This document shows positions 5,715-34,443 of a stretch of DNA of 37,599 nt, in pieces. Numbering within the stretch: position 1 is the stretch's first letter; every line of letters begins with the position of its first letter. The DNA is taken from the NCBI GenBank assembly GCA_013216195.1, contig JABSOQ010000018.1, positions 1-37,599 on the forward strand, written 5' to 3'. Below the pieces are notes generated by a model. That model saw nothing but the letters and a program-made list of their open reading frames with translations, had not been told where the DNA came from and made no database searches. Source of the stretch: Bdellovibrionales bacterium (GTDB lineage Bacteria; Bdellovibrionota; Bdellovibrionia; Bdellovibrionales; UBA1609). The translations under genes were made by a program, and so were the position numbers.

Positions 5715-6662
5715 TTAGGCAGGCAGAGTTCGAGCCAGTAAGTAAAACAGGGGTATACCCAGAGTTATGTTAAACGGAAACGTGATCGCCAATGAGGCTG
5801 TTAGAGACAGAGTCGGGTTCGCCTCAGGCACAGCAATCTTCATCGCGCTTGGAGCTGCAATATAAGAAGCACTCGCAGACAATATCGCCAGCAAGAACTT
5901 GCCGCCAAGGCTTAGCCCAATCAGATGACCAGCACATAAACCAAGAACCCCTGAAATCACAGGCATAGTGAGTGCGAAAAAGAGTAAGAACAAACCAGTC
6001 TTTTTTAAATGACCCATTTGCTGAGAGGCAATAACTCCCATCTCGAGCAAGAACAATGCGAGGAACCCTTTAAACAGGTCAACAAACAAGGGGTCTAGCG
6101 GAGCCATCTTTTCCGGGCCAGCTAAGTAGCCAATCAACAAGCCTCCACCCAGAAGAAAAATACTTTTACCAAGTAAGATGTCTCTGGCTAACTTGTTCTT
6201 GTCGCCAACCGAAGACAGCCCACCCTTGGCCAAAAAGATACCAACACATATGGCCGGTATTTCCAAGATTACCACTAATGTCATCATGTAAGGTTCATAG
6301 CTCACATCTAATGACTCGAGAAAAGCCAAAGAGGTCGCAAAAGTCACGGCACTTACTGAACCGTAGTGACCAGCAATGGAGCCAGCATCGGCTTGATTTA
6401 CTTTTTTTGAAGCGCGTAAAATAAAGTAGGCTATGACGGGTATCAGAACGCCTACAGCCAGAGTTGCAAAAAGGGCAGGCACGAACTCTCCAAAATTGGT
6501 CTTTGAAAGCTGAACACCACCCTTGAACCCAATAGCAAGCAACAGATATAGACTTACAAAATCGTAAGAACTTCTTGGCAACCTCAAGTCAGATTTGACC
6601 AAGCCGGACACAAGCCCAACTATGAAACACAAAATCGTAGGGTCTAGAAGGTTCTGAATCAT
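5715..6662 (-). CDS. sbtA: SbtA-type sodium-dependent bicarbonate transporter
   Basis: This 315-residue integral membrane protein has about ten hydrophobic segments in two halves. It matches the SbtA/DUF897 family: LDPTILCFIVGLVSGL at the N-terminus, LYLLLAIGFKGGVQLSK, then IAGHYGSVSAVTFATSLAFL in the core, and a second half with SASASYIAAPSAMKIAVPEA. The GHYGSVSAVTF and SASASYIAAPSA segments correspond to the two inverted-repeat substrate/sodium sites. In cyanobacteria SbtA imports bicarbonate with sodium and is gated by the PII-like protein SbtB. No sbtB-like gene lies next to it here; the downstream neighbour is a START-like protein. In a heterotroph it may feed carboxylation reactions, but that is inference. 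A GAAAGAG ribosome site precedes the ATG. Confidence 0.85.
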   Translation of the reverse strand: MIQNLLDPTILCFIVGLVSGLVKSDLRLPRSSYDFVSLYLLLAIGFKGGVQLSKTNFGEFVPALFATLAVGVLIPVIAYFILRASKKVNQADAGSIAGHYGSVSAVTFATSLAFLESLDVSYEPYMMTLVVILEIPAICVGIFLAKGGLSSVGDKNKLARDILLGKSIFLLGGGLLIGYLAGPEKMAPLDPLFVDLFKGFLALFLLEMGVIASQQMGHLKKTGLFLLFFALTMPVISGVLGLCAGHLIGLSLGGKFLLAILSASASYIAAPSAMKIAVPEANPTLSLTASLAITFPFNITLGIPLFYLLARTLPA

Positions 6663-6953
6663 TCTGCTCTTTCTTTTTGCAGGAGCCCAAAGTCGCGTGA
6701 CTTAGGCCTTCCTATCTCAACCTAGCTTAGAGAACCAAAAGGCCTGGGTATGTACTTTTTGTTTACGGGCCCAATTAACTATATTTCATTCAGCAATGCA
6801 CCAAGAAATAGGCCTAATTTGAAGCCACTGAGCCGATTCTCAAGTGAGACAGACATGGAATAGCCTCCGGCAATCAACGCGAAACGACAATTTTCAATCT
6901 GATAATCACGTGGCCAAAACTTTACTCTTTCATAAGTTAATTCTTGAGCCTGA

Positions 6954-7343
6954 TTAAGATTCGACCGGGGAGCAGATCTCAATCAAGAACCCATTATTGT
7001 CTGTGACATACGATATTGTTTGCCCCCAAGGCTTTTTCACAGGCTCTTTGACACCTTTAGCACCATTATCGATTGCTGTCTTAAATGCCTTCTCAACATC
7101 ATCGGTTACGAAACCGATCTCGAATGATGGTAGTTCTGAATCAGCGGTTTGCTTCTTATAATGAAAACCATGAGAGCCTGCTAGATTATGGGACACAAAG
7201 CCCAGCTTTGTATCACCAGTTTGCATCTCCCCATAGTCACCCTCTGGGTGAAGAAAGCCTTTACTCAAGCCAAATGCTTGTTCGTAAAAATTCATCGTAT
7301 CGGAAACGTTTTCAACATATAGCAAATTGTAACCAAGTTTCAC
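6954..7343 (-). CDS. VOC family protein (glyoxalase/bleomycin-resistance fold)
   Basis: This 129-residue protein shows two beta-alpha-beta-beta-beta modules. The first begins KLGYNLLYVENVSDTMNFYE and the second SFEIGFVTDDVEKAFKTAID, ending in a GQTISYVTDNNGFLIEICSP strand with the conserved D-x-x-G-x-x-x-E/H pattern. That glutamate (FLIEIC) is the usual second-half metal ligand. VOC enzymes include glyoxalases, dioxygenases and drug-binding proteins, and the substrate is not predictable. The start is GTG at 7343 with GGAGG six bases upstream. It follows the zinc-ribbon gene by 10 bases and ends the DUF4920-HAD-zinc ribbon-VOC run. The 6663-6953 stretch beyond it contains no gene I can support. 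Confidence 0.83.
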   Translation of the reverse strand: MKLGYNLLYVENVSDTMNFYEQAFGLSKGFLHPEGDYGEMQTGDTKLGFVSHNLAGSHGFHYKKQTADSELPSFEIGFVTDDVEKAFKTAIDNGAKGVKEPVKKPWGQTISYVTDNNGFLIEICSPVES

Positions 7344-7353
7344 CTACAGCCTC

Positions 7354-7545
7354 CTACTGGTCCATCAGCCAAAAAGTTGAACCTGACTCATAAGACTCTA
7401 CAAACTTACACCTCTTACAGATCATCAGCGTGAAAGTCGGAGAACTAAAGGCCAATAGTTGCTTCTTTTTCATAACAACTTCTGAGGTCGTGTACTCTTC
7501 TCCACCACACTTTACGCATGACCATTTCTTTTTACCTGAATCCAC
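7354..7545 (-). CDS. Small zinc-ribbon protein (COG3478-like)
   Basis: This 63-residue protein has two zinc knuckles: CVKC at residues 10-13 and CKRC at residues 44-47, the latter followed by KFVESYE. The arrangement matches the small nucleic-acid-binding zinc-ribbon family COG3478, in which the second knuckle is followed by a hydrophobic-aromatic Y-E/D-like tail. The start is GTG with AGGAG six bases upstream. It sits inside a co-directional minus-strand gene run, 38 bases from the HAD gene and 10 bases from the VOC gene. Its role is unknown; nucleic-acid binding is only a family-level suggestion. Confidence 0.75.
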   Translation of the reverse strand: MDSGKKKWSCVKCGGEEYTTSEVVMKKKQLLAFSSPTFTLMICKRCKFVESYESGSTFWLMDQ

Positions 7546-7583
7546 AGTGACTCCTAGGTCTGGTTAATAGAAAAACAAAGGCC

Positions 7584-8276
7584 TCAAAGTAAATTAATGA
7601 CTTGGTCGAGCCGACTTAGAGTTTGGTATTTGTCAGTCGGCGGGTTTTCGACTTTCTCGTGATCCCAGGTCGTATGAAACGGCACATGAATAGCCATGCC
7701 GCCAAGCTCGAGAACAGGTAGTATGTCTGACTTCAATGAATTACCAATCATGAGAAAGGTGGCGGGATCAACTGACAGGTGGTCCAACAGCTCTTTGTAG
7801 TTTTTAGGCAGTTTGTTACTCAACACTTCGACATGATGAAAGAACTCACTCAAGCCAGACTTCTCTAGCTTTCTTTCTTGATCTAACAAATCGCCCTTGG
7901 TGAGTAGCAAGACCCGATGCTTTTTTGAGACAGCCTCGAGGGTTTCTCTTACCCCATCAAGCAGATCTACAGGTTTGTGCAGCATCTCTTTGCCAATTTC
8001 GAGAATGCGCCTGCTCACTTCAGGGTTCAAGTTCTGGTTAGAAAGCTCTAGGGCACACTCCATCATAGACAAAACAAAACCTTTTATGCCGTAGCCGTAA
8101 ATGGCAAGGTTCTGCATCTCGTACTTGATAAGTTCTTGTCTAGCCTTGTTCTCAGTTTCATAGCCGACCATAAGTGTGCAAAACTCATCTTCTGCATCAC
8201 GAAAGAAGGTCTCGTTTACCCACAAAGTGTCGTCAGCATCAAAACCTATGACTTCAATTTTACTATAGGACCTCAT
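7584..8276 (-). CDS. HAD-superfamily hydrolase
   Basis: This 230-residue protein is a haloacid dehalogenase-type phosphatase. Motif I is GFDADDTLW, with nucleophile D13 and acid D15. Motif II is VLLLTKGD near residue 125, with Thr in the usual Ser/Thr place. Motif III is a lysine in the KLPKNYKELL region. Motif IV is MIGNSLKSDI, with the metal-binding Asp. The all-helical cap lies between motifs I and II, as in C1 phosphatases such as phosphoglycolate phosphatase or YjjG. The substrate cannot be assigned. The gene starts at ATG 8276 with GAAGG just upstream and lies 19 bases after the DUF4920 gene. Confidence 0.88.
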   Translation of the reverse strand: MRSYSKIEVIGFDADDTLWVNETFFRDAEDEFCTLMVGYETENKARQELIKYEMQNLAIYGYGIKGFVLSMMECALELSNQNLNPEVSRRILEIGKEMLHKPVDLLDGVRETLEAVSKKHRVLLLTKGDLLDQERKLEKSGLSEFFHHVEVLSNKLPKNYKELLDHLSVDPATFLMIGNSLKSDILPVLELGGMAIHVPFHTTWDHEKVENPPTDKYQTLSRLDQVINLL

Positions 8277-8295
8277 TGCGCCTTCTTTAACAGTT

Positions 8296-8751
8296 CTATT
8301 GAACGACTTTTACGCCCTTTGCGACGATAGAGTACTCAAAGCTTGGCTCAGTCACGGCAGCAATCTCTTCTTTGGTGGCTCCAGCATCTTCAAGGTAATG
8401 CTTTGTATCTTTAACTGAAATTTCTTTTCGATTCATCATACCCTCAACCCAGACCTTCTTACCAACCAGAGTCATAGGCACGAAGAAGCCATAGTCTTTG
8501 AACTTCACGCGAAAGGTTTTGTCACTCCCCTGAAGAGTCATCCAACAGCCCTTTGCGGCACAGACCTTCTCAACATTGGCCTCCATAACCAGACTCGATT
8601 TCTCGTACTTTGCGTAATCTTTTAAGACTGAGTCGAGTGAAGTGGCACTTTCTGACTTAATCTCGTCACCATAAAATGGCTTCTCTTTGACACCGTTGTC
8701 GGCACTAGCTTGAAAGCCAAGAATTAGAATCACAAAAGAAAGCAGTCTCAT
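8296..8751 (-). CDS. Exported DUF4920-domain protein
   Basis: I start this gene at the ATG at 8751, preceded by GGCGGGGTG, which gives about 151 residues. The N-terminus RLLSFVILILGFQASA is a Sec signal peptide, probably cleaved after A-S-A. The mature part has the DUF4920 signature: a VEKVCAAKGCWMTL segment with two cysteines, then RVKFKDYGFFVPMTLVGKKVWVEG. DUF4920 proteins resemble OB-fold or copper/cofactor-type periplasmic proteins, and their function is not established. The paired cysteines (VCAAKGCWM) could bind metal. The frame is open further upstream to 8850, but that extension would bury the signal peptide internally. It is the first gene of the run leading to the VOC gene. Confidence 0.82.
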   Translation of the reverse strand: MRLLSFVILILGFQASADNGVKEKPFYGDEIKSESATSLDSVLKDYAKYEKSSLVMEANVEKVCAAKGCWMTLQGSDKTFRVKFKDYGFFVPMTLVGKKVWVEGMMNRKEISVKDTKHYLEDAGATKEEIAAVTEPSFEYSIVAKGVKVVQ

Positions 8752-8943
8752 TTTCACCCCGCCTAGGTAAGATGGTTTGCTGTCAAACAGCTCAACTGAA
8801 ATTGATAACACCATAAAAATGATCTGCAATACCCTCCGTGTCGCAACCAATACTAACGCACTTTAGAGCGAAACCTTGGGCACTAGAACCTAAGATATCG
8901 TGCAAAACTTCTGTAGCTAGGCAAAACTGCTGAGGGCCTGCTG

Positions 8944-9303
8944 CTATATCCACATCATTGAGCTGATAAACGAGTAAATCACAAAGCTCAAAGAAATACT
9001 CATCACTGTGATTGTCACAGTGGCCAGAATGTTGCCCTGGCTATACAGAAACACTGCACCCAACAAACTTACAATTAGTTACGACACCGCCACAAATAGA
9101 GCTCCGGGCGTGATTCCTTGCGGCTCGCCGCTCAATGGCACTTTGTAGCCAACTAACGAGTCTGCTAGTCCCGCAAAAAAGGCAAGTGTCAAAAGACACA
9201 CTATAGGAAACACAAGGCTGAATATCGTGAATGGCAGAACATGAAACAAAAGCTGTTTGTACCAAACTAATTTAACTCCAAACACGTCAAACACCTTCAC
9301 CAA
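8944..9303 (-). pseudogene. Small membrane protein gene interrupted by an in-frame TAA
   Basis: On the minus strand a frame starting TTG/GTG at 9303/9300 encodes a hydrophobic protein that reaches a TAA after residues GALFVAVS (TAA near 9079-9081). The same frame then continues without interruption as LIVSLLGAVFLYSQGNILAT and ends SFISSMMWI at TAG 8944-8946. Reading through gives about 118 residues with three transmembrane segments. The stop falls inside the second one, which is only complete when both parts are joined. A Leu TTA to TAA change is the simplest explanation. No strong ribosome-binding site is visible upstream, and the gene lies beyond the HD gene's terminator, so expression is doubtful. 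I recognise no family. The 8752-8943 stretch beyond it shows nothing definite. Confidence 0.65.
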
Positions 9304-9324
9304 AGGTCACAAGAGACTCGCTGC

Positions 9325-9351
9325 AAAAAACTAGGGCTCGAGGGAGCCCTA
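9325..9351 (-). terminator. Intrinsic terminator of the HD-domain gene
   Basis: On the minus strand an 8-bp GC-rich stem (TAGGGCTC with GAGCCCTA, four-base loop) is followed after one base by a run of six T. The TAG stop codon of the HD gene forms the first three bases of the stem. This is a classic Rho-independent terminator and it isolates the broken membrane-protein gene downstream. Confidence 0.85.
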
Positions 9352-10272
9352 AGAAAACAGTACCGGAAGAAACCGAAAGCTCCAATGCGAAAGCTCTCTT
9401 TTAATATTCTCTACGGCTTGCTCTTGATACTTAGCTCTAAAGACCGAGGTGTGAAATACCCCCCTTGCGAGCAACCTCGTCAACACCGCCTTTCTCTTGA
9501 ACTTGAATACCCAGCTCGGCACGAGGCGATACTCTTCATAAACGCTCTGTTGATAGGCCTGGTACTCAAAAACACCCTGACCTAAGGCTGAATGATCAAT
9601 ATCAAGAAAGACCTGCTGGTCGTAGCTAAGGTCTTCATTTTTCGCATCTGCCACAATCAGAGCTTTCACATCTTGCAAGTCGATGCGACCTGGGTATTTT
9701 GAAAGATCGTTCAACATGGCCTCGGCACTTTTCTTTTCGTTGCCATACGATTTAGGGCTATAAACATAGTCGTGGTACCAAATGGCAAGCTCAAGCCTGT
9801 CTTTGTTTACAATAGTGTCTTCGAGTCTGTCTAGCTCCCACAAGCAATTCAATAAGTGCTCTAGATTGTGGTACTCACGGCCCTCTTGGCTGTACTTAGC
9901 AAACAGTTTTTCTACAATCTCAATTCTCTCAGCTGCAGGCACGCTAAACTGGCTCATCAAAAAAGCGTCAAGACGAACTCTTAACTCTTCAACCCGCCCT
10001 TCGCTCAATACCGGCTGATCTAGCCCACGGTAGAGTACAAATAGTCTGTTTTCAGTACAGGTCATGCTCTTAATGAAGTTCTCCATATTGACATGTGGAA
10101 AGGTCTTCACCCGTCTCAAGAACTCACCCGAGCCACTGAAAGGGATCTGCCAACTTTGCTCTTTCGCAAAAATCAAAAAGAAGACATCTTCAAAAAATGG
10201 CCCAGCATCTGTGTTCTTGATCACGATGTAATCGACTTCCTCAGGCTTTAGGTCTGTATATTGTTTTTTCAT
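9349..10272 (-). CDS. HD-domain predicted phosphohydrolase with extra N-terminal domain
   Basis: The ATG at 10272 has a strong AAGGAG site, giving about 307 residues; the frame opens further upstream but without a ribosome site. The C-terminal 210 residues match the COG4339 family of predicted metal-dependent HD phosphohydrolases: REYHNLEHLLNCLWEL, then ELAIWYHDYVYSP with the HD pair, then NEKKSAEAML and QVFLDIDHSALG. The first 85 residues form a separate domain I cannot name. The gene is divergent from the TetR regulator, with 57 bases between their starts containing a palindrome, so it is the likely regulatory target. It ends in its own terminator. The substrate is unknown; the family has been linked to nucleotide or phosphoester hydrolysis only by analogy. 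Confidence 0.82.
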   Translation of the reverse strand: MKKQYTDLKPEEVDYIVIKNTDAGPFFEDVFFLIFAKEQSWQIPFSGSGEFLRRVKTFPHVNMENFIKSMTCTENRLFVLYRGLDQPVLSEGRVEELRVRLDAFLMSQFSVPAAERIEIVEKLFAKYSQEGREYHNLEHLLNCLWELDRLEDTIVNKDRLELAIWYHDYVYSPKSYGNEKKSAEAMLNDLSKYPGRIDLQDVKALIVADAKNEDLSYDQQVFLDIDHSALGQGVFEYQAYQQSVYEEYRLVPSWVFKFKRKAVLTRLLARGVFHTSVFRAKYQEQAVENIKRELSHWSFRFLPVLFS

Positions 10273-10282
10273 ATCATCTCCT

Positions 10283-10310
10283 TTGTTATCTCTATTGTCG
10301 AATCTATAAA
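10283..10310 (+). promoter_or_regulatory. Promoter of the TetR gene
   Basis: TTGTTA at 10283-10288 and TATAAA at 10305-10310 are separated by 16 bases, a good sigma-70 fit. Transcription would start near 10318, about 12 bases before the ATG. That leaves almost no leader, which agrees with the absence of a ribosome-binding site and suggests a leaderless or near-leaderless message. Confidence 0.5.
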
Positions 10311-10327
10311 TTGGGTGTACAACCAAT
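10310..10327. promoter_or_regulatory. 18-bp palindromic operator for TetR
   Basis: ATTGGGTGTACAACCAAT is a near-perfect palindrome, with eight of nine pairs matching around a TGTACA centre. It overlaps the likely start of tetR transcription and ends two bases before its ATG. Its size, symmetry and position fit a TetR-family operator controlling both the regulator and the divergent HD gene. Confidence 0.6.
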
Positions 10328-10329
10328 CT

Positions 10330-10884
10330 ATGGGCAGGAAGAGCAACCGAGAACAGCGTAGAGCTGATATCACTAGAGCTTTTGCAAGAGTTCTAAGCCA
10401 ACATGGCTACACAGGGGCAACTGTGCTAGCTGTAGCCGAAGAAGCCCAGCTCTCACCGGGGCTTCTCCATCATCATTTCAAAAACAAAAGAGAAATGTTG
10501 ATTGAGTTACTTGAAAGCCTAATTGAAGAGTTCAAGATCAGGTTTAGACAAAGAGCAAAAGAGGGTGAATTCAACCTTAACACCTATATTGATAGCGCTT
10601 TAAAGCTTGATGAGAGATCTGACTCTATCGCTGCCAAGTGCTGGGTCGGCATCTTAGCAGAAGCCCTCAAAGACAAAGCCATCATGGAGAAGATCAAACG
10701 CCACCTCGACTCTGAAATCGTCTCAATCACAAAGCTCTCAGGAGACAAACTTGGCCCCACAGAGAGCAGCGCAATACTTGCATTTATAATCGGCTCACTT
10801 GTGTTCGGCGCCTACGCCCCCAAACGAACTGCTGGCTTTGCCGCAGACATGGGCAAAAAGTTTGCCTCTGCGGCTGCAGATTAG
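10330..10884 (+). CDS. TetR-family transcriptional regulator
   Basis: This protein has about 184 residues from the ATG at 10330. The N-terminal helix-turn-helix is clear: RRADITRAFARVLSQHGY, then TVLAVAEEAQLSPGLLHHHF and KNKREMLIELLE. The LLHHHFKNK recognition helix is close to BetI-type regulators, and the remaining helical C-terminal domain is typical of TetR ligand-binding domains. An upstream in-frame GTG at 10315 is possible but also lacks a ribosome-binding site. I choose the ATG because the palindrome and promoter leave room only for it. It probably represses itself and the divergent HD-domain gene. The ligand is not predictable. Confidence 0.88.
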   Translation: MGRKSNREQRRADITRAFARVLSQHGYTGATVLAVAEEAQLSPGLLHHHFKNKREMLIELLESLIEEFKIRFRQRAKEGEFNLNTYIDSALKLDERSDSIAAKCWVGILAEALKDKAIMEKIKRHLDSEIVSITKLSGDKLGPTESSAILAFIIGSLVFGAYAPKRTAGFAADMGKKFASAAAD

Positions 10885-28776: not shown

Positions 28777-29415
28777 CTAAGCCAATATACCGGCGAGAAA
28801 CTTCTCTGACATGCCTGCTTTTAGCTGCTGAACATCGCCACCTGTTTGCTCTAAAACAAATCCGATGCGGCCTTCAATAATCAAAGAAGACAAGCCGTGT
28901 ACGTGTGCCCAAATCAGCATTGATTGCTCAATCGGGTCTTGGTTCTTAAAAAAACCAATGTCTTGCATCTCTTCTACCATTGAGGTCAGCTGCTGGAAGC
29001 TCTGCATCGAGTTCTGCTTCAGGCTCGGGTACAAATCATGATCTGGTATCGCATCGGTGAACATCAAGCGGTAGTGGTCTGGGTTGTTAACAGCAAAATT
29101 CAGGTAAGCTTCACCCATGGCATGAAACTTCTCGTGCGGCCCTTTATCTTTGCTGATCTCTTTCGATTCTGCGAGAGCTTCAGTGAAAATCACAAAACCT
29201 TGCTCAGCAATGGCAGCCAACAAGACCTCTTTGGTCTCAAAATGCTTATAAGGAGCCCCCGGGCTCACCTTCAATGCCCTGGCCAATTCTCTAAAAGAGA
29301 AGTCAGACCGGCCCTTTGCCAAGAACTCAAGGCCCGTTCTGATACAGGCATCAGCGAGATTGCCATGATGGTAACTATCTGATTTTTTTGCATTTTTCTT
29401 ACTAACTCTCGTCAT
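28777..29415 (-). CDS. TetR-family regulator of the efflux operon
   Basis: The 212-residue protein has an N-terminal TetR helix-turn-helix reading YHHGNLADACIRTGLEFL, FSFRELARALKVSPGAPYKH and FETKEVLLAAIAEQGF. The C-terminal part fits the TetR_C WHG-type ligand-binding domain with MGEAYLNFAVNNPDHYRLMF. AAGGA lies just upstream of the ATG. It is divergent from the efflux operon across 121 bases that contain three tandem palindromes, so it is almost certainly its repressor and its own. The ligand is probably one of the exported compounds but cannot be predicted. The 87 bases between this gene and tmRNA contain no gene. Confidence 0.92.
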   Translation of the reverse strand: MTRVSKKNAKKSDSYHHGNLADACIRTGLEFLAKGRSDFSFRELARALKVSPGAPYKHFETKEVLLAAIAEQGFVIFTEALAESKEISKDKGPHEKFHAMGEAYLNFAVNNPDHYRLMFTDAIPDHDLYPSLKQNSMQSFQQLTSMVEEMQDIGFFKNQDPIEQSMLIWAHVHGLSSLIIEGRIGFVLEQTGGDVQQLKAGMSEKFLAGILA

Positions 29416-29448: not shown

Positions 29449-29508
29449 GTAAACAATGTTCATTTTAAAGTAGACAGCGTTTACATTAAAAGTATACACT
29501 GTTTACAT
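29449..29508. promoter_or_regulatory. Three tandem TetR operators
   Basis: Three related palindromes lie at 29449, 29470 and 29492: GTAAACAATGTTCAT, GTAGACAGCGTTTACAT and GTATACACTGTTTACAT. The consensus GTAnACA-N-TGTTTAC has arms matching at 5-6 of 7 positions. Spacing is 21 and 22 bases, two helical turns, so three dimers could bind one DNA face side by side. Confidence 0.75.
29471..29498 (+). promoter_or_regulatory. Promoter of the efflux operon
   Basis: TAGACA (29471-29476) and TATACA (29493-29498) are 16 bases apart. Operators 2 and 3 overlap the -35 and -10 elements exactly, so TetR binding would block RNA polymerase. The message then carries AAAAGGATG just before the ATG at 29537. Confidence 0.55.
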
Positions 29509-29536
29509 TAAACCTCGAACCGAAAAAGGATGCGAA

Positions 29537-30145
29537 ATGAGGCAAATTCAAGAACATCTGATCATAGCCAGCGTAGCGCTAGGGCTATTGGTAGCAACCC
29601 AACAAGCTCTATCTATAGATAAAGCAACAGTGACCACAGAGCCCGCAACCGAGATCACCCTATCTGGCCCGATGACATTCTCGGCAAAAGTGCGCTCACT
29701 TGGTGGTGGGTGGTACCGAGCCGACCTTGAATTGCCAAAGTTCTTTGAGAACTCGGTACAAAACGGCCAAAAGGTAACACTTCGGCTGCCTTTCACTCAA
29801 AACCGCTCACTCGTATCGGCTTTAAAGACAGATAAAAGTCGCCAGCCTTATCTTAAGTTTCAGTTTCCGCACTCTGCCCTCGACGGCATGAGCCTCAAGG
29901 CCGACCTCATCATCTCGGCTACTAAGCTCTATAGCATTCCACTGAGTTCGGTTTTCTCACCAACAGAAGATCAGCAGTGGGTGTTTGTAGTTGAAGACCA
30001 AAAAGCCAAAAAGGTGAAAGTGCAGCCCTACAAGGTCAAAGAAGGTGCTGTTCTCGTTTTCGCATCACTAAACAAAGACTCTCTTATTATATCGTCGCGT
30101 CTGAATGAGATTTATGAAACCCAAGCTGTTGAGGTGAGAAAATAA
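29537..30145 (+). CDS. Short periplasmic adaptor (membrane-fusion protein) without hairpin
   Basis: The 202-residue protein has an N-terminal signal or anchor (HLIIASVALGLLVATQQA) and a body that matches only the beta-barrel and membrane-proximal domains of RND adaptors. The barrel-like part includes GWYRADLELPKFF and VQNGQKVTLRLPF. The membrane-proximal part has TKLYSIPLSSVFSPTEDQQW, VFVVEDQKAKKVKVQPYKV and then a strand EGAVLVFASL. Typical adaptors are 350-400 residues and include a lipoyl domain and a long coiled-coil hairpin that reaches TolC; no coiled coil or lipoyl motif is visible here. It precedes the RND-TolC fusion gene with a TAATG overlap, so the two are translationally coupled. 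It would link the pump to its fused outer-membrane part. Confidence 0.75.
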   Translation: MRQIQEHLIIASVALGLLVATQQALSIDKATVTTEPATEITLSGPMTFSAKVRSLGGGWYRADLELPKFFENSVQNGQKVTLRLPFTQNRSLVSALKTDKSRQPYLKFQFPHSALDGMSLKADLIISATKLYSIPLSSVFSPTEDQQWVFVVEDQKAKKVKVQPYKVKEGAVLVFASLNKDSLIISSRLNEIYETQAVEVRK

Positions 30146-33100
30146 TGGCTACTTTAATATTGAAATACAAAAGAATCTTCTTAAGCTTTTTCTTTCTAAT
30201 GACTCTCTCTGGCCTCGCCTCTTGGTTAACCATGCCAAAAGAAGAAGACCCACAACTCAAAGAGCGCTTTGGTTTCATTCAACTGATCTACCCCGGCGCC
30301 ACACCAAAAGAGATGGAGCGTCTTTTAGTTAACCCCTTGATCGAAGACCTCGCTGAAGTCACCGAGATCAAAAAAATTGATTCAACCATTCGGTCTGAGT
30401 TCTCGATTATTCAACTTGAGCTGACTGATGACACCAGTGACGACAACAAAATCAATGAGGCCTGGTCTGACATTCAAGACATTATGAATTCGGCGTCAAC
30501 TGACTTCCCGAGCGGAGCATTTACCCCCTCACTAGACCGAAAAGCCCTAGATCAAGACGCTATAGTCATTGCAATTGCAGGAGCTAAGCCCCTAGAGCTT
30601 AAAGCCATCGCGAAAGACCTCGAGAAAAAGATTCTCACAGTGGGCAGTGTCTCGAAGGTTCGCTTTATCGCCGACCCCGGCAGACAAGTTAGCATCACTC
30701 TTGATGAAGATAAGGTCAGACAGTTCGGGCTTGATCGCACACAAATTATCTCTCAAATCAGAAGGGCCAATGAGGTCTTGCCAGGTGGCTCTATCAAAGT
30801 TGGCTCACAGCAGCTCAACATCTCAACCAACTCGAGTTTTAAGAGCCTCGATGACTTGAGATCGCTTTCAATTGTTCAGCCCTCAGGCGTACCTCTCACT
30901 CTTGCTAGTATTGCAAGTATTGAAATGACTGAGTCACTCCCTCGCACAGAGGCCATGAGAGTCAACAGTCAAAGCTCAATTGGCCTAGGTGTCGTGCCTT
31001 CAAGAGAAATTGATCTGATAAAATTTGGCGAAGATGTGAAAGTGGCTCTTGGCGAGTTCCAGCAAACGGCTCCAGCAGATATCTCATTCGATGTGATCTC
31101 GTTTCAACCTGGCAATGTCTCAGACCGACTGAGTGACCTTGGCTTGTCTCTCTTGATCGGTATTTTAACAGTCTCTGGCATTCTCATCTTTTTGATGGGT
31201 TTTCGCATCGGCCTGATCACCTCAGCCCTAGTGCCCATCGTGAGCCTTGCTGCACTCGCCGTCTATTCATCTACAGGTGGGATGCTTCATCAAATCTCGA
31301 TTTCAGCATTTGTTCTGTCACTTGGCCTACTGGTCGACAACATCATTGTCGTCATCGAGTCGATTCAAGAGAAAATCGACTCTGGCATCAGCCCTGCTGA
31401 ATCAGCAACAGCCACTATTCAAGAGCTATCACTACCCTTGCTTGCAGCAACTGGCACAACGATCGCTTCTTTCTTGCCAATGCTTGGCTCTACTGGCTCA
31501 ACGGCCGACTTCACCAGAGCGATACCCACCATTGCTGTACTTACTCTGTCTGTGTCTTATCTGTTCAGCGTATTTGTGACACCAGCACTTGGCGGCATGC
31601 TACTTCGCAAAAGCAAAACCAAAGCAGCAGAGCCATTGGGCCGAATCGCATCTAAAATGGCCGAGTTTGTAGTCAAACGCCCTTGTACAATCATCGTAGG
31701 CTCAATGGTGGCCCTAGTGCTCTCGGGCGCAACTTCTGGCTTGGTTAAGAATAAGTTCTTTCCGAACGCAGACCGCAAACAACTGGTGCTAGAAGTTCGA
31801 TTTTCAGAGGGGACTCACTTTGAATACACAAACAAACAATTGGCTAGGCTAGAAAGAAAGGTCGAGAATCTCGAAGCGGTTAATAGGGTGTCTTCTTTTA
31901 TTGGCAGAAGCACCCCTCGCTTCTTTTACAACTTGAACCGAACTCCAAATGCTCCGTTTGTAGGCCAGCTCATCGTAGAGTATGAAAGCTTTGATGCCGC
32001 TCGCGCAGGGCTCTCTAAGCTAGAAAAGCTCGGTGAAGCCACCTTGCCTAATGCCTTTGTTATTGCCAGGCCCCTCGAGCAAGGCCCACCAACCCTGGCA
32101 CCAGTTGAGATCCAAATTGTCTCGTCTTCATATAAAGATGTGGTAGAGGAGCATGAGAAGGTGCTTCAAGCCTTGTCTGAGACTGAGGGCACTCGAAAAG
32201 TCAGATCTGACATCGGTGTAGGCTTGGCTAAGTACAACCTTATCACTAACGACTTCAACGCCAGTCAGTACTTTCTCTCAAGATCAGATCTCGCATCAAC
32301 TTCACTATCTAAAACAAGAGGCTTGCCCGTCTCAAGATATGAAGCTGAAGATGACAACGACATCAACATCGTGGTCAGAGGCGAGTCAGGTCAATACTCA
32401 TCACCTGAAGACATCAAGAGCACCTTTGTCGGTCAAACTGAGACCGCCTCGGTGAATATCGAGGACTTCGCAACACTTCAAATTGCGTTTGAACCTTCTG
32501 TAATCAGAAAAAGTAAAAATCAGTACATCATTCGGGTCTTATCAGAGATTGAGGCTGGTTACGACTTCTCTGACATTCTCGTGCCCGCGCTGGCTAAAAT
32601 TGATGACCAGGTCACAAACCCCAACGTCGAAATAAAGCTCGGCGGCGCCGCCGAAGAGAGCGACAGTGCCAACCAAGCCATCGTAAAGGTTATGCCAATT
32701 GGGATCATGCTCTTGCTGATCTCTCTGCTGGTTCAGTTCAACTCATTCAAAAAAGTAACTATTATTTTGGTGACAATACCTTTGATTTTCGCAGGGGTTT
32801 TTCCGGCTCTGTTTCTTGCAGGGCAACCTTTTAGCTTTTTCTCACTACTCGGAACCCTTGCCTTAATTGGTATTGTCGTCAACACCGGCATTTTACTGGT
32901 TGACCGAATTGACTCGAACCTGGCCTCGGGCCTTTCTTTAACTGATGCCATCGAAGAGGCAATTGTGAGAAGAATTCGGCCAATCTTACTAACGACCATT
33001 ACGACAATTGCTGGATTGATGCCACTTGCTCTCACAAGCGCCACACTCTGGCCACCTTTCGCATGGGCAATGATCGGAGGGCTTTTGTCTTCAACCCTAC

Positions 33101-34443
33101 TCGCTCTTGTTGTCGTACCGAGCTTGTACTTTGTTCTCTATAGAGAAAAGAAAGCTGCCACTAAGCCAGTTCCGGTCGTTGCACCTGCGACCGTAGCTCT
33201 ATTGTTGGGGTTGTTCATGGCCACTCCCCGTCAGTCGAGAGCCGAACAACTCGACATTTTGACTGTCGTCAAGATGGCTGAGAACCGACCACTTTATAAG
33301 TCTTCGGTAGCCGAACTCGAGTCGCTTAAGAAACAGCTATCGACCCAAAGAGGTGCTGCTTATCTGCCCAAAGTCGGAGCTCAGTTTCAGCGCTTTTACC
33401 GAGACCGCCAGTTTGATCTCGAAACCCCAGTTGGCACATTTGCTCTTACTGAGCAATGGAACACGCAAGCTAGCGTTGTCGCCACTCAACCAATTTTAGA
33501 TTTGCAAAACATGAACTACAAGATCGACGAGCTCAAATTGCAAGTGAAAGCAAAAAAGAACTCAAACGATCGCCTCAAAAAAGAAATCAAAGCCATGGCC
33601 GCCAAGGTCTATCTTGATATTCTGATCTTAGATCAAGCTTACCAAACGTCGAAAGAGCTCAATGCAAACCTCATGAACAGACGAAAAGAGATCTTGCGTC
33701 TCTATGATCTCGGAAGAGTTTCTAGCTTAGACAAACAAAAGATTGAAATCGCAATCGATGAGTCTGATCAGGGTCTTTTTGCGATCACAGAACAGCGAAA
33801 AGTGCTGTCTACCCAGCTGGGTCAATTGATCGGAAGCGATAAGCCCGTTGAAGTCACTAAAGACTCATTCAACCTTTTTAAGTCTGCGGTTTCAAACCAA
33901 CCCGTTGAAGCAAGTAGGCTTGATCTTCGAGCCCTCGAGAATACCAGGCAGGCTAGTGAAACCGCAATAAAAGGGCTTAGGTCCTCATATCTGCCAACAA
34001 TTGCTCTGCAGGGCCGATACCTTTACGACAACCCTGGGCAAGTGGTTCAAAATGAGTGGTATGAAGTTGGTATCATTGCCAAATGGGAGATATTTTCTGG
34101 GAACACAAGACATTCGCAAATCAAAGCCAATCAGGCCAATCTTCGCAAAATCACTCAACAGCAACGAGAGGCAGAGCTCAATATAGACCTCGAGCAAAAA
34201 AAGAATGAGGCCGACTTTAACACCCTCAACAGAGAAAAATCTCTGAGAGACAGATCATTTGCTAGGGCTAAGAGTGTCGTCAAAGATGAACGAAAACGGT
34301 ACCGATCTGGCAAGACGACATTGAATGACCTTATCGATGCAGAAGTTTTGTTAACCCAAACAAAAGGTCGATTGGCCACTTATGAATATGAGGTTCTAAA
34401 GTCACAAATTGAGCTCAAGATTTCAAAGGGAGGTGACATCTAA
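30145..34443 (+). CDS. RND efflux permease fused to a TolC-type outer-membrane factor
   Basis: This 1432-residue protein joins two normally separate proteins in one frame. Residues 1 to about 1005 are an RND permease: YPGATPKEMERLLVNPLIED in the first porter loop, the fourth membrane helix with LGLLVDNIIVVIES (residues 393-406, D398 in the proton relay), and the tenth with GIVVNTGILLVD (residue 909 on). Residues about 1011-1033 are hydrophobic (VVAPATVALLLGLF) and end in MATPRQSRA before EQ, an excellent signal peptidase I site after A1033. Residues 1034-1432 have the TolC fold: LPKVGAQFQRFYRDRQF, a helical repeat with KAMAAKVYLDILILDQAY, then SYLPTIALQGRYLYDNPG and the final SGKTTLNDLIDAEVLL helix. 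No in-frame start codon suited to a separate TolC gene precedes the hydrophobic segment. Either the protein is a permanent fusion or the polypeptide is cut into pump and channel. Confidence 0.93.
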   Translation: MATLILKYKRIFLSFFFLMTLSGLASWLTMPKEEDPQLKERFGFIQLIYPGATPKEMERLLVNPLIEDLAEVTEIKKIDSTIRSEFSIIQLELTDDTSDDNKINEAWSDIQDIMNSASTDFPSGAFTPSLDRKALDQDAIVIAIAGAKPLELKAIAKDLEKKILTVGSVSKVRFIADPGRQVSITLDEDKVRQFGLDRTQIISQIRRANEVLPGGSIKVGSQQLNISTNSSFKSLDDLRSLSIVQPSGVPLTLASIASIEMTESLPRTEAMRVNSQSSIGLGVVPSREIDLIKFGEDVKVALGEFQQTAPADISFDVISFQPGNVSDRLSDLGLSLLIGILTVSGILIFLMGFRIGLITSALVPIVSLAALAVYSSTGGMLHQISISAFVLSLGLLVDNIIVVIESIQEKIDSGISPAESATATIQELSLPLLAATGTTIASFLPMLGSTGSTADFTRAIPTIAVLTLSVSYLFSVFVTPALGGMLLRKSKTKAAEPLGRIASKMAEFVVKRPCTIIVGSMVALVLSGATSGLVKNKFFPNADRKQLVLEVRFSEGTHFEYTNKQLARLERKVENLEAVNRVSSFIGRSTPRFFYNLNRTPNAPFVGQLIVEYESFDAARAGLSKLEKLGEATLPNAFVIARPLEQGPPTLAPVEIQIVSSSYKDVVEEHEKVLQALSETEGTRKVRSDIGVGLAKYNLITNDFNASQYFLSRSDLASTSLSKTRGLPVSRYEAEDDNDINIVVRGESGQYSSPEDIKSTFVGQTETASVNIEDFATLQIAFEPSVIRKSKNQYIIRVLSEIEAGYDFSDILVPALAKIDDQVTNPNVEIKLGGAAEESDSANQAIVKVMPIGIMLLLISLLVQFNSFKKVTIILVTIPLIFAGVFPALFLAGQPFSFFSLLGTLALIGIVVNTGILLVDRIDSNLASGLSLTDAIEEAIVRRIRPILLTTITTIAGLMPLALTSATLWPPFAWAMIGGLLSSTLLALVVVPSLYFVLYREKKAATKPVPVVAPATVALLLGLFMATPRQSRAEQLDILTVVKMAENRPLYKSSVAELESLKKQLSTQRGAAYLPKVGAQFQRFYRDRQFDLETPVGTFALTEQWNTQASVVATQPILDLQNMNYKIDELKLQVKAKKNSNDRLKKEIKAMAAKVYLDILILDQAYQTSKELNANLMNRRKEILRLYDLGRVSSLDKQKIEIAIDESDQGLFAITEQRKVLSTQLGQLIGSDKPVEVTKDSFNLFKSAVSNQPVEASRLDLRALENTRQASETAIKGLRSSYLPTIALQGRYLYDNPGQVVQNEWYEVGIIAKWEIFSGNTRHSQIKANQANLRKITQQQREAELNIDLEQKKNEADFNTLNREKSLRDRSFARAKSVVKDERKRYRSGKTTLNDLIDAEVLLTQTKGRLATYEYEVLKSQIELKISKGGDI

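Follow-up and report, generated by a model that had tools for sequence, protein, structure and literature searches.

How does an RND efflux pump reach its outer-membrane channel when its adaptor appears too small to form a bridge? In established structures, the membrane-proximal, β-barrel, and lipoyl domains of the adaptor contact the RND protein, and the α-helical hairpin contacts TolC (PMC3807786, PMC4446572). The locus described here, from a Bdellovibrionales bacterium, encodes an adaptor of 202 residues directly before a single open reading frame (ORF) in which an RND transporter is followed by a channel. The initial annotation of this DNA considered the adaptor to consist of the barrel and membrane-proximal parts only, lacking the lipoyl and hairpin domains. 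It proposed that a physical joint between channel and pump, or their supply in a fixed ratio, may make the bridge dispensable.

Organization of the locus

The window, i.e., the whole 37,599-nucleotide stretch that was analyzed, is one entire contig of a 4.1-Mb assembly that is 97.6% complete. The adaptor ORF is intact, with an ATG at 29537, 202 codons, and a TAA at 30143–30145. The last base of this TAA is the first base of the next ATG, at 30145 (TAATG), confirming the overlap by which the two genes had been proposed to be coupled; the adaptor gene also overlaps the RND–channel gene in loci L060, L061, L070, and L062. The downstream ORF comprises 1,432 codons and encodes an RND transporter and then a TolC-family channel, as assigned by Pfam and NCBIfam. 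The three components of a tripartite RND efflux pump are present in one operon (Table 1).

Only 121 bp separate the divergent TetR-family gene from the adaptor start. A divergent ORF, recognized by its position, occupies the same place beside the pump in L059, L060, L061, L062, L063, and L070. GTNNAC-like palindromes similar to those of the window precede the adaptor gene, or the pump gene where there is no adaptor, in L056, L058, L059, L060, L062, L070, and L075; none of this type was seen in L057, L063, and L076. As putative operators, the palindromes of the window and its relatives suggest one regulon retained through adaptor loss.

The possibility that a missed frameshift hides a hairpin domain, raised in the initial annotation, was rejected. 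No frameshift was found, the upstream space is occupied by the TetR gene and the operator-like repeats, and the missing domains are beside the short adaptor in none of the three other short-adaptor loci.

Table 1. Features of the adaptor and pump genes, in window coordinates
Feature	Positions	Strand	Basis
TetR-family regulator, divergent from the adaptor–pump pair	28777..29415	-	Pfam TetR_N (3.4e-7), TetR_C_33 (2.7e-15)
Putative operator in the TetR–adaptor intergenic region: operator-like repeats with GTNNAC half-sites	29449..29513	.	Sequence inspection
Minimal periplasmic adaptor (202 aa) lacking the lipoyl and hairpin domains	29537..30145	+	ORF, RND_mfp, ten-adaptor HMM, predicted fold
Adaptor aa 1–27: anchor helix at the N-terminus or signal peptide, lacking a lipobox Cys	29537..29617	+	Model helix 2–25; sequence
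Adaptor aa 28–42: retained N-terminal strand of the membrane-proximal domain	29618..29662	+	Alignment, model, structure comparison
Adaptor aa 43–126: β-barrel with a single short helix (68–73)	29663..29914	+	Model, structure comparison
Adaptor aa 127–202: C-terminal part of the membrane-proximal domain	29915..30142	+	HMM, model, structure comparison
Fused ORF aa 1–1000: RND transporter	30145..33144	+	Pfam ACR_tran aa 10–998, 2e-129
Junction, aa 1001–1033: basic stretch, hydrophobic segment, SRA/EQ; signal-peptide-like	33145..33243	+	Predicted cleavage after aa 1033
Fused ORF aa 1034–1432 and stop: OEP/TolC-family outer-membrane channel	33244..34443	+	Pfam OEP 7.6e-37; TIGR01844 aa 1035–1425

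Identity and predicted fold of the adaptor

The NCBIfam RND_mfp profile matches only the C-terminal half of the adaptor (aa 100–200 to positions 217–321 of 322, E = 2.9e-5), with a score of 23.2 bits that lies below the curated cut-off of 94.9 bits. A Pfam search of the protein gave no significant match and no lipoyl or HlyD match. A hidden Markov model (HMM) built from ten full-length adaptors encoded beside relatives of the window pump aligns aa 61–180 with model positions 220–348 of 373 (E = 3.2e-10 when 5 sequences were searched and 5.4e-8 when the search covered 655 ORFs). An HMM built without the window adaptor recovers it at E = 3.8e-19, and leave-one-out profiles recover each of five short adaptors in turn (2.4e-17 to 7.4e-22).

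AlphaFold yielded a pLDDT of 53.7 from the single sequence. With 13 relatives, the pLDDT rose to 88.3 (pTM 0.68), and the structure prediction called for in the initial annotation returned a barrel and membrane-proximal fold. Nine of the ten full-length adaptors entered the folding alignment (L069 was left out), each trimmed to the barrel start, so that the N-terminal strand of the model is supported by four alignment rows. The only helices in the model span residues 2–25 and 68–73, leaving no channel-contacting hairpin, and a short turn near residues 57–60 occupies the expected place of the lipoyl–hairpin insertion. Neither the alignment nor the model has residues for a lipoyl (barrel-sandwich) domain. 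The seven best Foldseek matches are BesA chains (E = 2.5e-8). VIA-align superimposes residues 28–202 on residues 36–377 of an AcrA model with 174 aligned positions (Z = 13.3), and gives Z-scores of 13.0 to ZneB and 12.8 to BesA (169 residues). The segment of aa 43–126 fits a MacA barrel at 2.1 Å over 84 residues.

These profile and model comparisons identify the gene product as a true RND periplasmic adaptor, with predicted membrane-proximal and β-barrel domains homologous to those of AcrA and MexA. The HMM, the alignment, and the predicted fold all agree with the domain content originally proposed. Since both ends of the adaptor fold are present, the loss is internal: approximately 140–170 residues, corresponding to lipoyl, hairpin, and lipoyl segments, are gone from the middle.

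Two further readings were discarded. A truncated protein is incompatible with the presence of the N-terminal membrane-proximal and barrel strands around a missing internal segment, and a chance ORF is rejected by the conservation and fold of the adaptor.

A graded series of adaptors among related pumps

Relatives were sought by a scan with the N-terminal RND part of the fused protein, which yielded 79 loci; a contig scan with a single fusion protein as the query had found no relatives among 32 candidates. Loci L056–L078 were analyzed in full, L079 and L081 were only looked at, and the others, at 24–28% identity and mostly titled as Campylobacterota, were excluded. The 23 close loci belong to Bdellovibrionota, Acidobacteriota, Myxococcota, Spirochaetota, and Calditrichota, some being titled only Proteobacteria or bacterium, and two of them are contigs of genomes G123 (L056) and G094 (L059).

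Full-length adaptors of 363–424 residues precede the pump in ten close loci, and full-length adaptors also do so in L065, L073, and L074; Pfam HlyD_3 and HlyD_D23 were detected in all five of the ten that were scanned. The same adaptor of about 200 residues, overlapping the same fused gene, occurs in L060 (208 aa), L061 (197 aa), and L070 (204 aa). The lipobox-bearing adaptor of L062, from a Caldithrix MAG, has 269 residues and no Pfam score; by alignment, it retains a lipoyl-like stretch, has no room for a hairpin, and looks BesA-like. No adaptor was found beside the fused pump in the fetched DNA of L056, L057, L058, L059, L068, and L075.

In a midpoint-rooted RND tree of 29 rows (L017 and L024 were left out), the 11 reduced-adaptor rows form one clade (support 100/98), comprising four with short adaptors, one with the 269-residue form, and six in which none was found. 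The short-adaptor rows constitute a sub-clade (99/98), and all full-adaptor rows lie outside the 11-row clade. The tree thus establishes a graded series of adaptors; it does not resolve the order of losses inside the clade. Pump and channel are fused in all 11 reduced rows (G094 being judged from two contig pieces), while the 13 full-adaptor rows include nine fused, three unfused, and one cut. G186 and G247, unfused outgroup pumps with a weaker family match, also have full-length adaptors. Because full-length adaptors accompany fused, unfused, and outgroup pumps, full length looks ancestral.

The comparison of adaptor length with and without fusion, suggested in the initial annotation, therefore places every reduced adaptor in a fused pump and full-length adaptors in the three unfused relatives and both outgroups. 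It supports the proposed cause only in part and does not bear out the idea that a bridge becomes dispensable through fusion as such: full-length adaptors remain in nine of the fused relatives as well as in two fusions from Bacteroidota, so the hairpin was not removed by fusion alone. These two Bacteroidota fusions are a 1467-aa RND–OEP protein beside a 343-aa adaptor on Persicobacter plasmid pPP3 and a 1439-aa CusA/CzcA–OEP protein beside a 416-aa adaptor in Bernardetia. Both resemble the window fusion in having ACR_tran and then OEP in one ORF with a signal-peptide-like junction, but differ in that their neighboring adaptors are full-length, with HlyD_D23 and HlyD_3 matches.

Within the window's family, L047 (genome G017, 6098–10624) carries an apparently separate RND–channel ORF of 1508 aa, whose junction is also signal-peptide-like. 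No adaptor ORF lies beside it; upstream are a MarR-like gene, identified by eye, and two small ORFs of 143 and 140 aa.

A profile of the short adaptors matched 6 of 368 genomes of the phylum at E = 1e-6, in three of them along its entire length and in the other three only over the C-terminal portion of longer frames. The short form, present in 3 of these 368 genomes, is rare. The pump relatives without any adaptor would fit a decaying remnant that has no function and is en route to the complete loss seen in them. This reading is very improbable, considering the intact frame, the confident fold, and the preservation of the barrel and membrane-proximal core in four loci, where the short adaptors are at 17–22% identity to the window protein and the gene overlap is kept in all.

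The junction between pump and channel

In the fusions, a hydrophobic stretch after the last RND membrane segment is followed by small residues and then by the start of the channel domain, and a net positive charge precedes this stretch in 18 of 20 cases. The window junction reads ...LLLGLFMATPRQSRA/EQLDI, where the slash marks the predicted site, and there is almost no linker, with only a few residues lying between this site and the beginning of the channel domain. A strict rule (A at −1, a small or aliphatic residue at −3, and Q, E, or D at +1), written after the junctions had been inspected, fits 13 of 20 junctions and, among the remaining membrane segments of these proteins, 23 of 171 (Fisher p = 1.5e-6); the 13 include L062, where the hit is positioned too far downstream for an actual cleavage site. 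With a looser rule, junctions and other segments are not told apart (20/20 versus 169/171). Three cut loci (L072, L059, and L078) and three unfused ones (L073, L074, and L077) were left out of the test. By this post hoc rule, the fusions carry at the domain junction the hydrophobic segment and A-x-A-like site of a polyprotein cut by signal peptidase I. In the unfused L073, a separate gene 11 bp 3′ of the RND gene starts with an ordinary-looking signal peptide. The fusion may accordingly be read as a lost stop codon, with signal peptidase still releasing the channel. Given the resemblance of the junction to a signal peptide, the fused product probably matures into separate pump and channel proteins, and a fixed expression ratio between the two is possible. 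A comparable layout is known from FbcH of the cytochrome b-c1 complex, in which a multi-span membrane protein is followed by an internal signal peptide and a signal peptidase cut yields two subunits of one complex. FbcH shares this polyprotein arrangement with the window fusion, but it is a respiratory enzyme of unrelated sequence.

In a model that follows the initial annotation in joining the two, the fusion stays uncut, and a thirteenth membrane segment holds the channel to the pump as a tether that takes the place of the bridge. The single stop-free frame of the complete fused relatives is consistent with this idea, as is the fusion of all 11 reduced rows (G094 in two contig pieces). The N-terminus of a TolC-type channel is mid-periplasmic, however, and the few residues between site and channel in the window would be too short to reach it from the inner membrane. 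Together with the signal-peptide-like junctions and the full-length adaptors retained by fused relatives, this geometry makes a lasting joint improbable.

No compensating extension was found in either the RND or the channel part. The channel part has a median of 470.5 residues in ten reduced rows versus 508 in eight full rows (p = 3e-4, the rows being related and not independent), and the RND part has the same length in both (medians of the six reduced and eight full rows in which the start motif was found). L056 was dropped from this comparison owing to an N run in its channel part, and L046, a piece of G094, replaced L059.

In G123, the channel part of the adaptor-less fusion is interrupted by N runs at about 4300–4500 of L044, and its C-terminus lies in another frame; this is probably an assembly gap, and the length of the G123 copy is unreliable. 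The fused protein of the window has the motif V/I-D-N in TM4 (aa 398–399) and N at the TM10 lysine position (aa 913), as do most of L056–L078. The AcrB counterparts are D-D and lysine, and proton coupling may differ from that of AcrB.

Search for a second adaptor

The short adaptor could also be half a bridge, with the contact to the channel supplied from another locus by a hairpin protein of unrelated or highly divergent sequence. In the window genome, RND_mfp matches the gene described here, a 682-aa HlyD-like protein, and two short fragments, and neither HlyD_D23 nor the ten-adaptor profile finds anything at E = 0.001. With RND_mfp, HlyD_3, HlyD_D23, and the ten-adaptor profile, no full-length RND adaptor was recognized in this 97.6% complete genome, the 682-aa protein being the only full-length find. 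The second full-length adaptor that the initial annotation had considered damaging to its reading thus did not appear in recognizable form, but a HlyD-like candidate did. In G193, the 100% complete genome of L060, RND_mfp and HlyD_D23 likewise reveal no full-length RND adaptor, only the short adaptor and two fragments, and at none of the four loci with a short adaptor does a hairpin gene adjoin the pump gene. These results make a separate hairpin protein unlikely. In its favor are the position of the 682-aa protein, which adjoins an OEP gene, and other adaptor-like genes in G123 and G094 (both with adaptor-less fusions), G254 (the L061 genome), G306, and G347. A divergent adaptor could act in trans, and for BesA as well, the authors could not exclude an unknown factor (PMC3807786).

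The 682-aa protein is encoded in L052 (4732–8189, contig C269 of the window genome) by a gene overlapping the OEP gene; some 400 residues without a Pfam match precede its HlyD/lipoyl part (about 403–585). In L156 (6453–8771, G186), a 772-aa channel protein has its best OEP match C-terminally, behind a long N-terminal stretch, and adjoins an unfused RND gene and a full-length adaptor.

Other RND operons of the window genome are found in L048 (4072–8684), L049 (5246–9913), L050 (5314–10028), L051 (5489–9831), and L055 (452–3153), and one from the same genus in L158 (3991–8674, G002). No adaptor is recognizable beside the channel and RND genes in these six loci. The window lineage may use adaptor-less RND–channel pairs generally.

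Relation to known adaptors

The acrAB operon has its adaptor gene directly before the RND gene. The window adaptor shares this arrangement and the barrel and membrane-proximal fold with the AcrA/MexA type (AcrAB–TolC and MexAB–OprM). Of the 342 residues of AcrA (36–377), only 174 have a counterpart in the window protein, which differs from AcrA and MexA in lacking the lipoyl domain and the hairpin, and hence any known channel-contacting tip.

The closest precedent is BesA of the Borrelia burgdorferi BesABC system (PDB 4KKS, 4KKT, and 4KKU), which is described as an RND adaptor without the α-hairpin, whose partners have no compensating domains and whose genes, besC, besA, and besB, are separate and co-transcribed (PMC3807786). 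The window adaptor resembles BesA in the absence of the hairpin, in its barrel and membrane-proximal domains, and in partners that show no compensating domains. BesA, in which a short loop replaces the hairpin, keeps its lipoyl domain and lipid anchor, whereas the window adaptor has neither lipoyl domain nor lipobox; the BesABC genes are separate, whereas the pump and channel of the window form one ORF. In the open-licence PMC literature, no matching description was found of RND–TolC fusions, adaptor-less RND operons, Bdellovibrio RND adaptors, or lipoyl-less adaptors. Hairpin loss was already known from BesA; in that literature, we found no report of the combined loss of hairpin and lipoyl domains, of a graded series, or of confinement to fused pumps.

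A proposed mechanism

The best explanation, which we consider reasonably probable, is a collar adaptor on the pump with direct docking of the channel, both pump and channel arising from a cleaved polyprotein. Signal peptidase would cleave at the internal signal sequence and release the pump and the channel as individual proteins in equal amounts. The adaptor lacks the lipoyl–hairpin–lipoyl insertion and retains the barrel and membrane-proximal domains, whose place in known pumps is on the RND transporter; it would form a collar that aids the conformational cycle or steadies the assembly. The channel trimer would dock directly on the RND funnel, with no hairpins in between. Since the remainder of the adaptor can bind the pump but has no known grip on the channel, and neither the RND nor the channel part has grown, collar and direct docking are the simplest reading. 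Within the clade, the collar would have become optional, since no adaptor was found next to the fused pump gene of some relatives. More tentatively, and somewhat short of probable, the family may represent a two-part RND machine in which the channel docks directly and the adaptor is cut to a collar or lost, passing from full to hairpin-less to barrel-only to none within one clade with a self-splitting polyprotein; the window organism may then rely on adaptor-less RND–channel pairs throughout.

In a few genomes, the bridge between pump and channel is shortened to what may be a collar or is lost, always where the two are encoded as one long protein, so that the need for a bridge can itself be asked. 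The relatives include some with full adaptors and some with none, and together with an adaptor that lacks even the lipoyl ring they constitute a natural deletion series within one pump family. Such a series allows the role of each adaptor domain to be addressed, as well as whether an RND pump by itself can form a seal with its channel.
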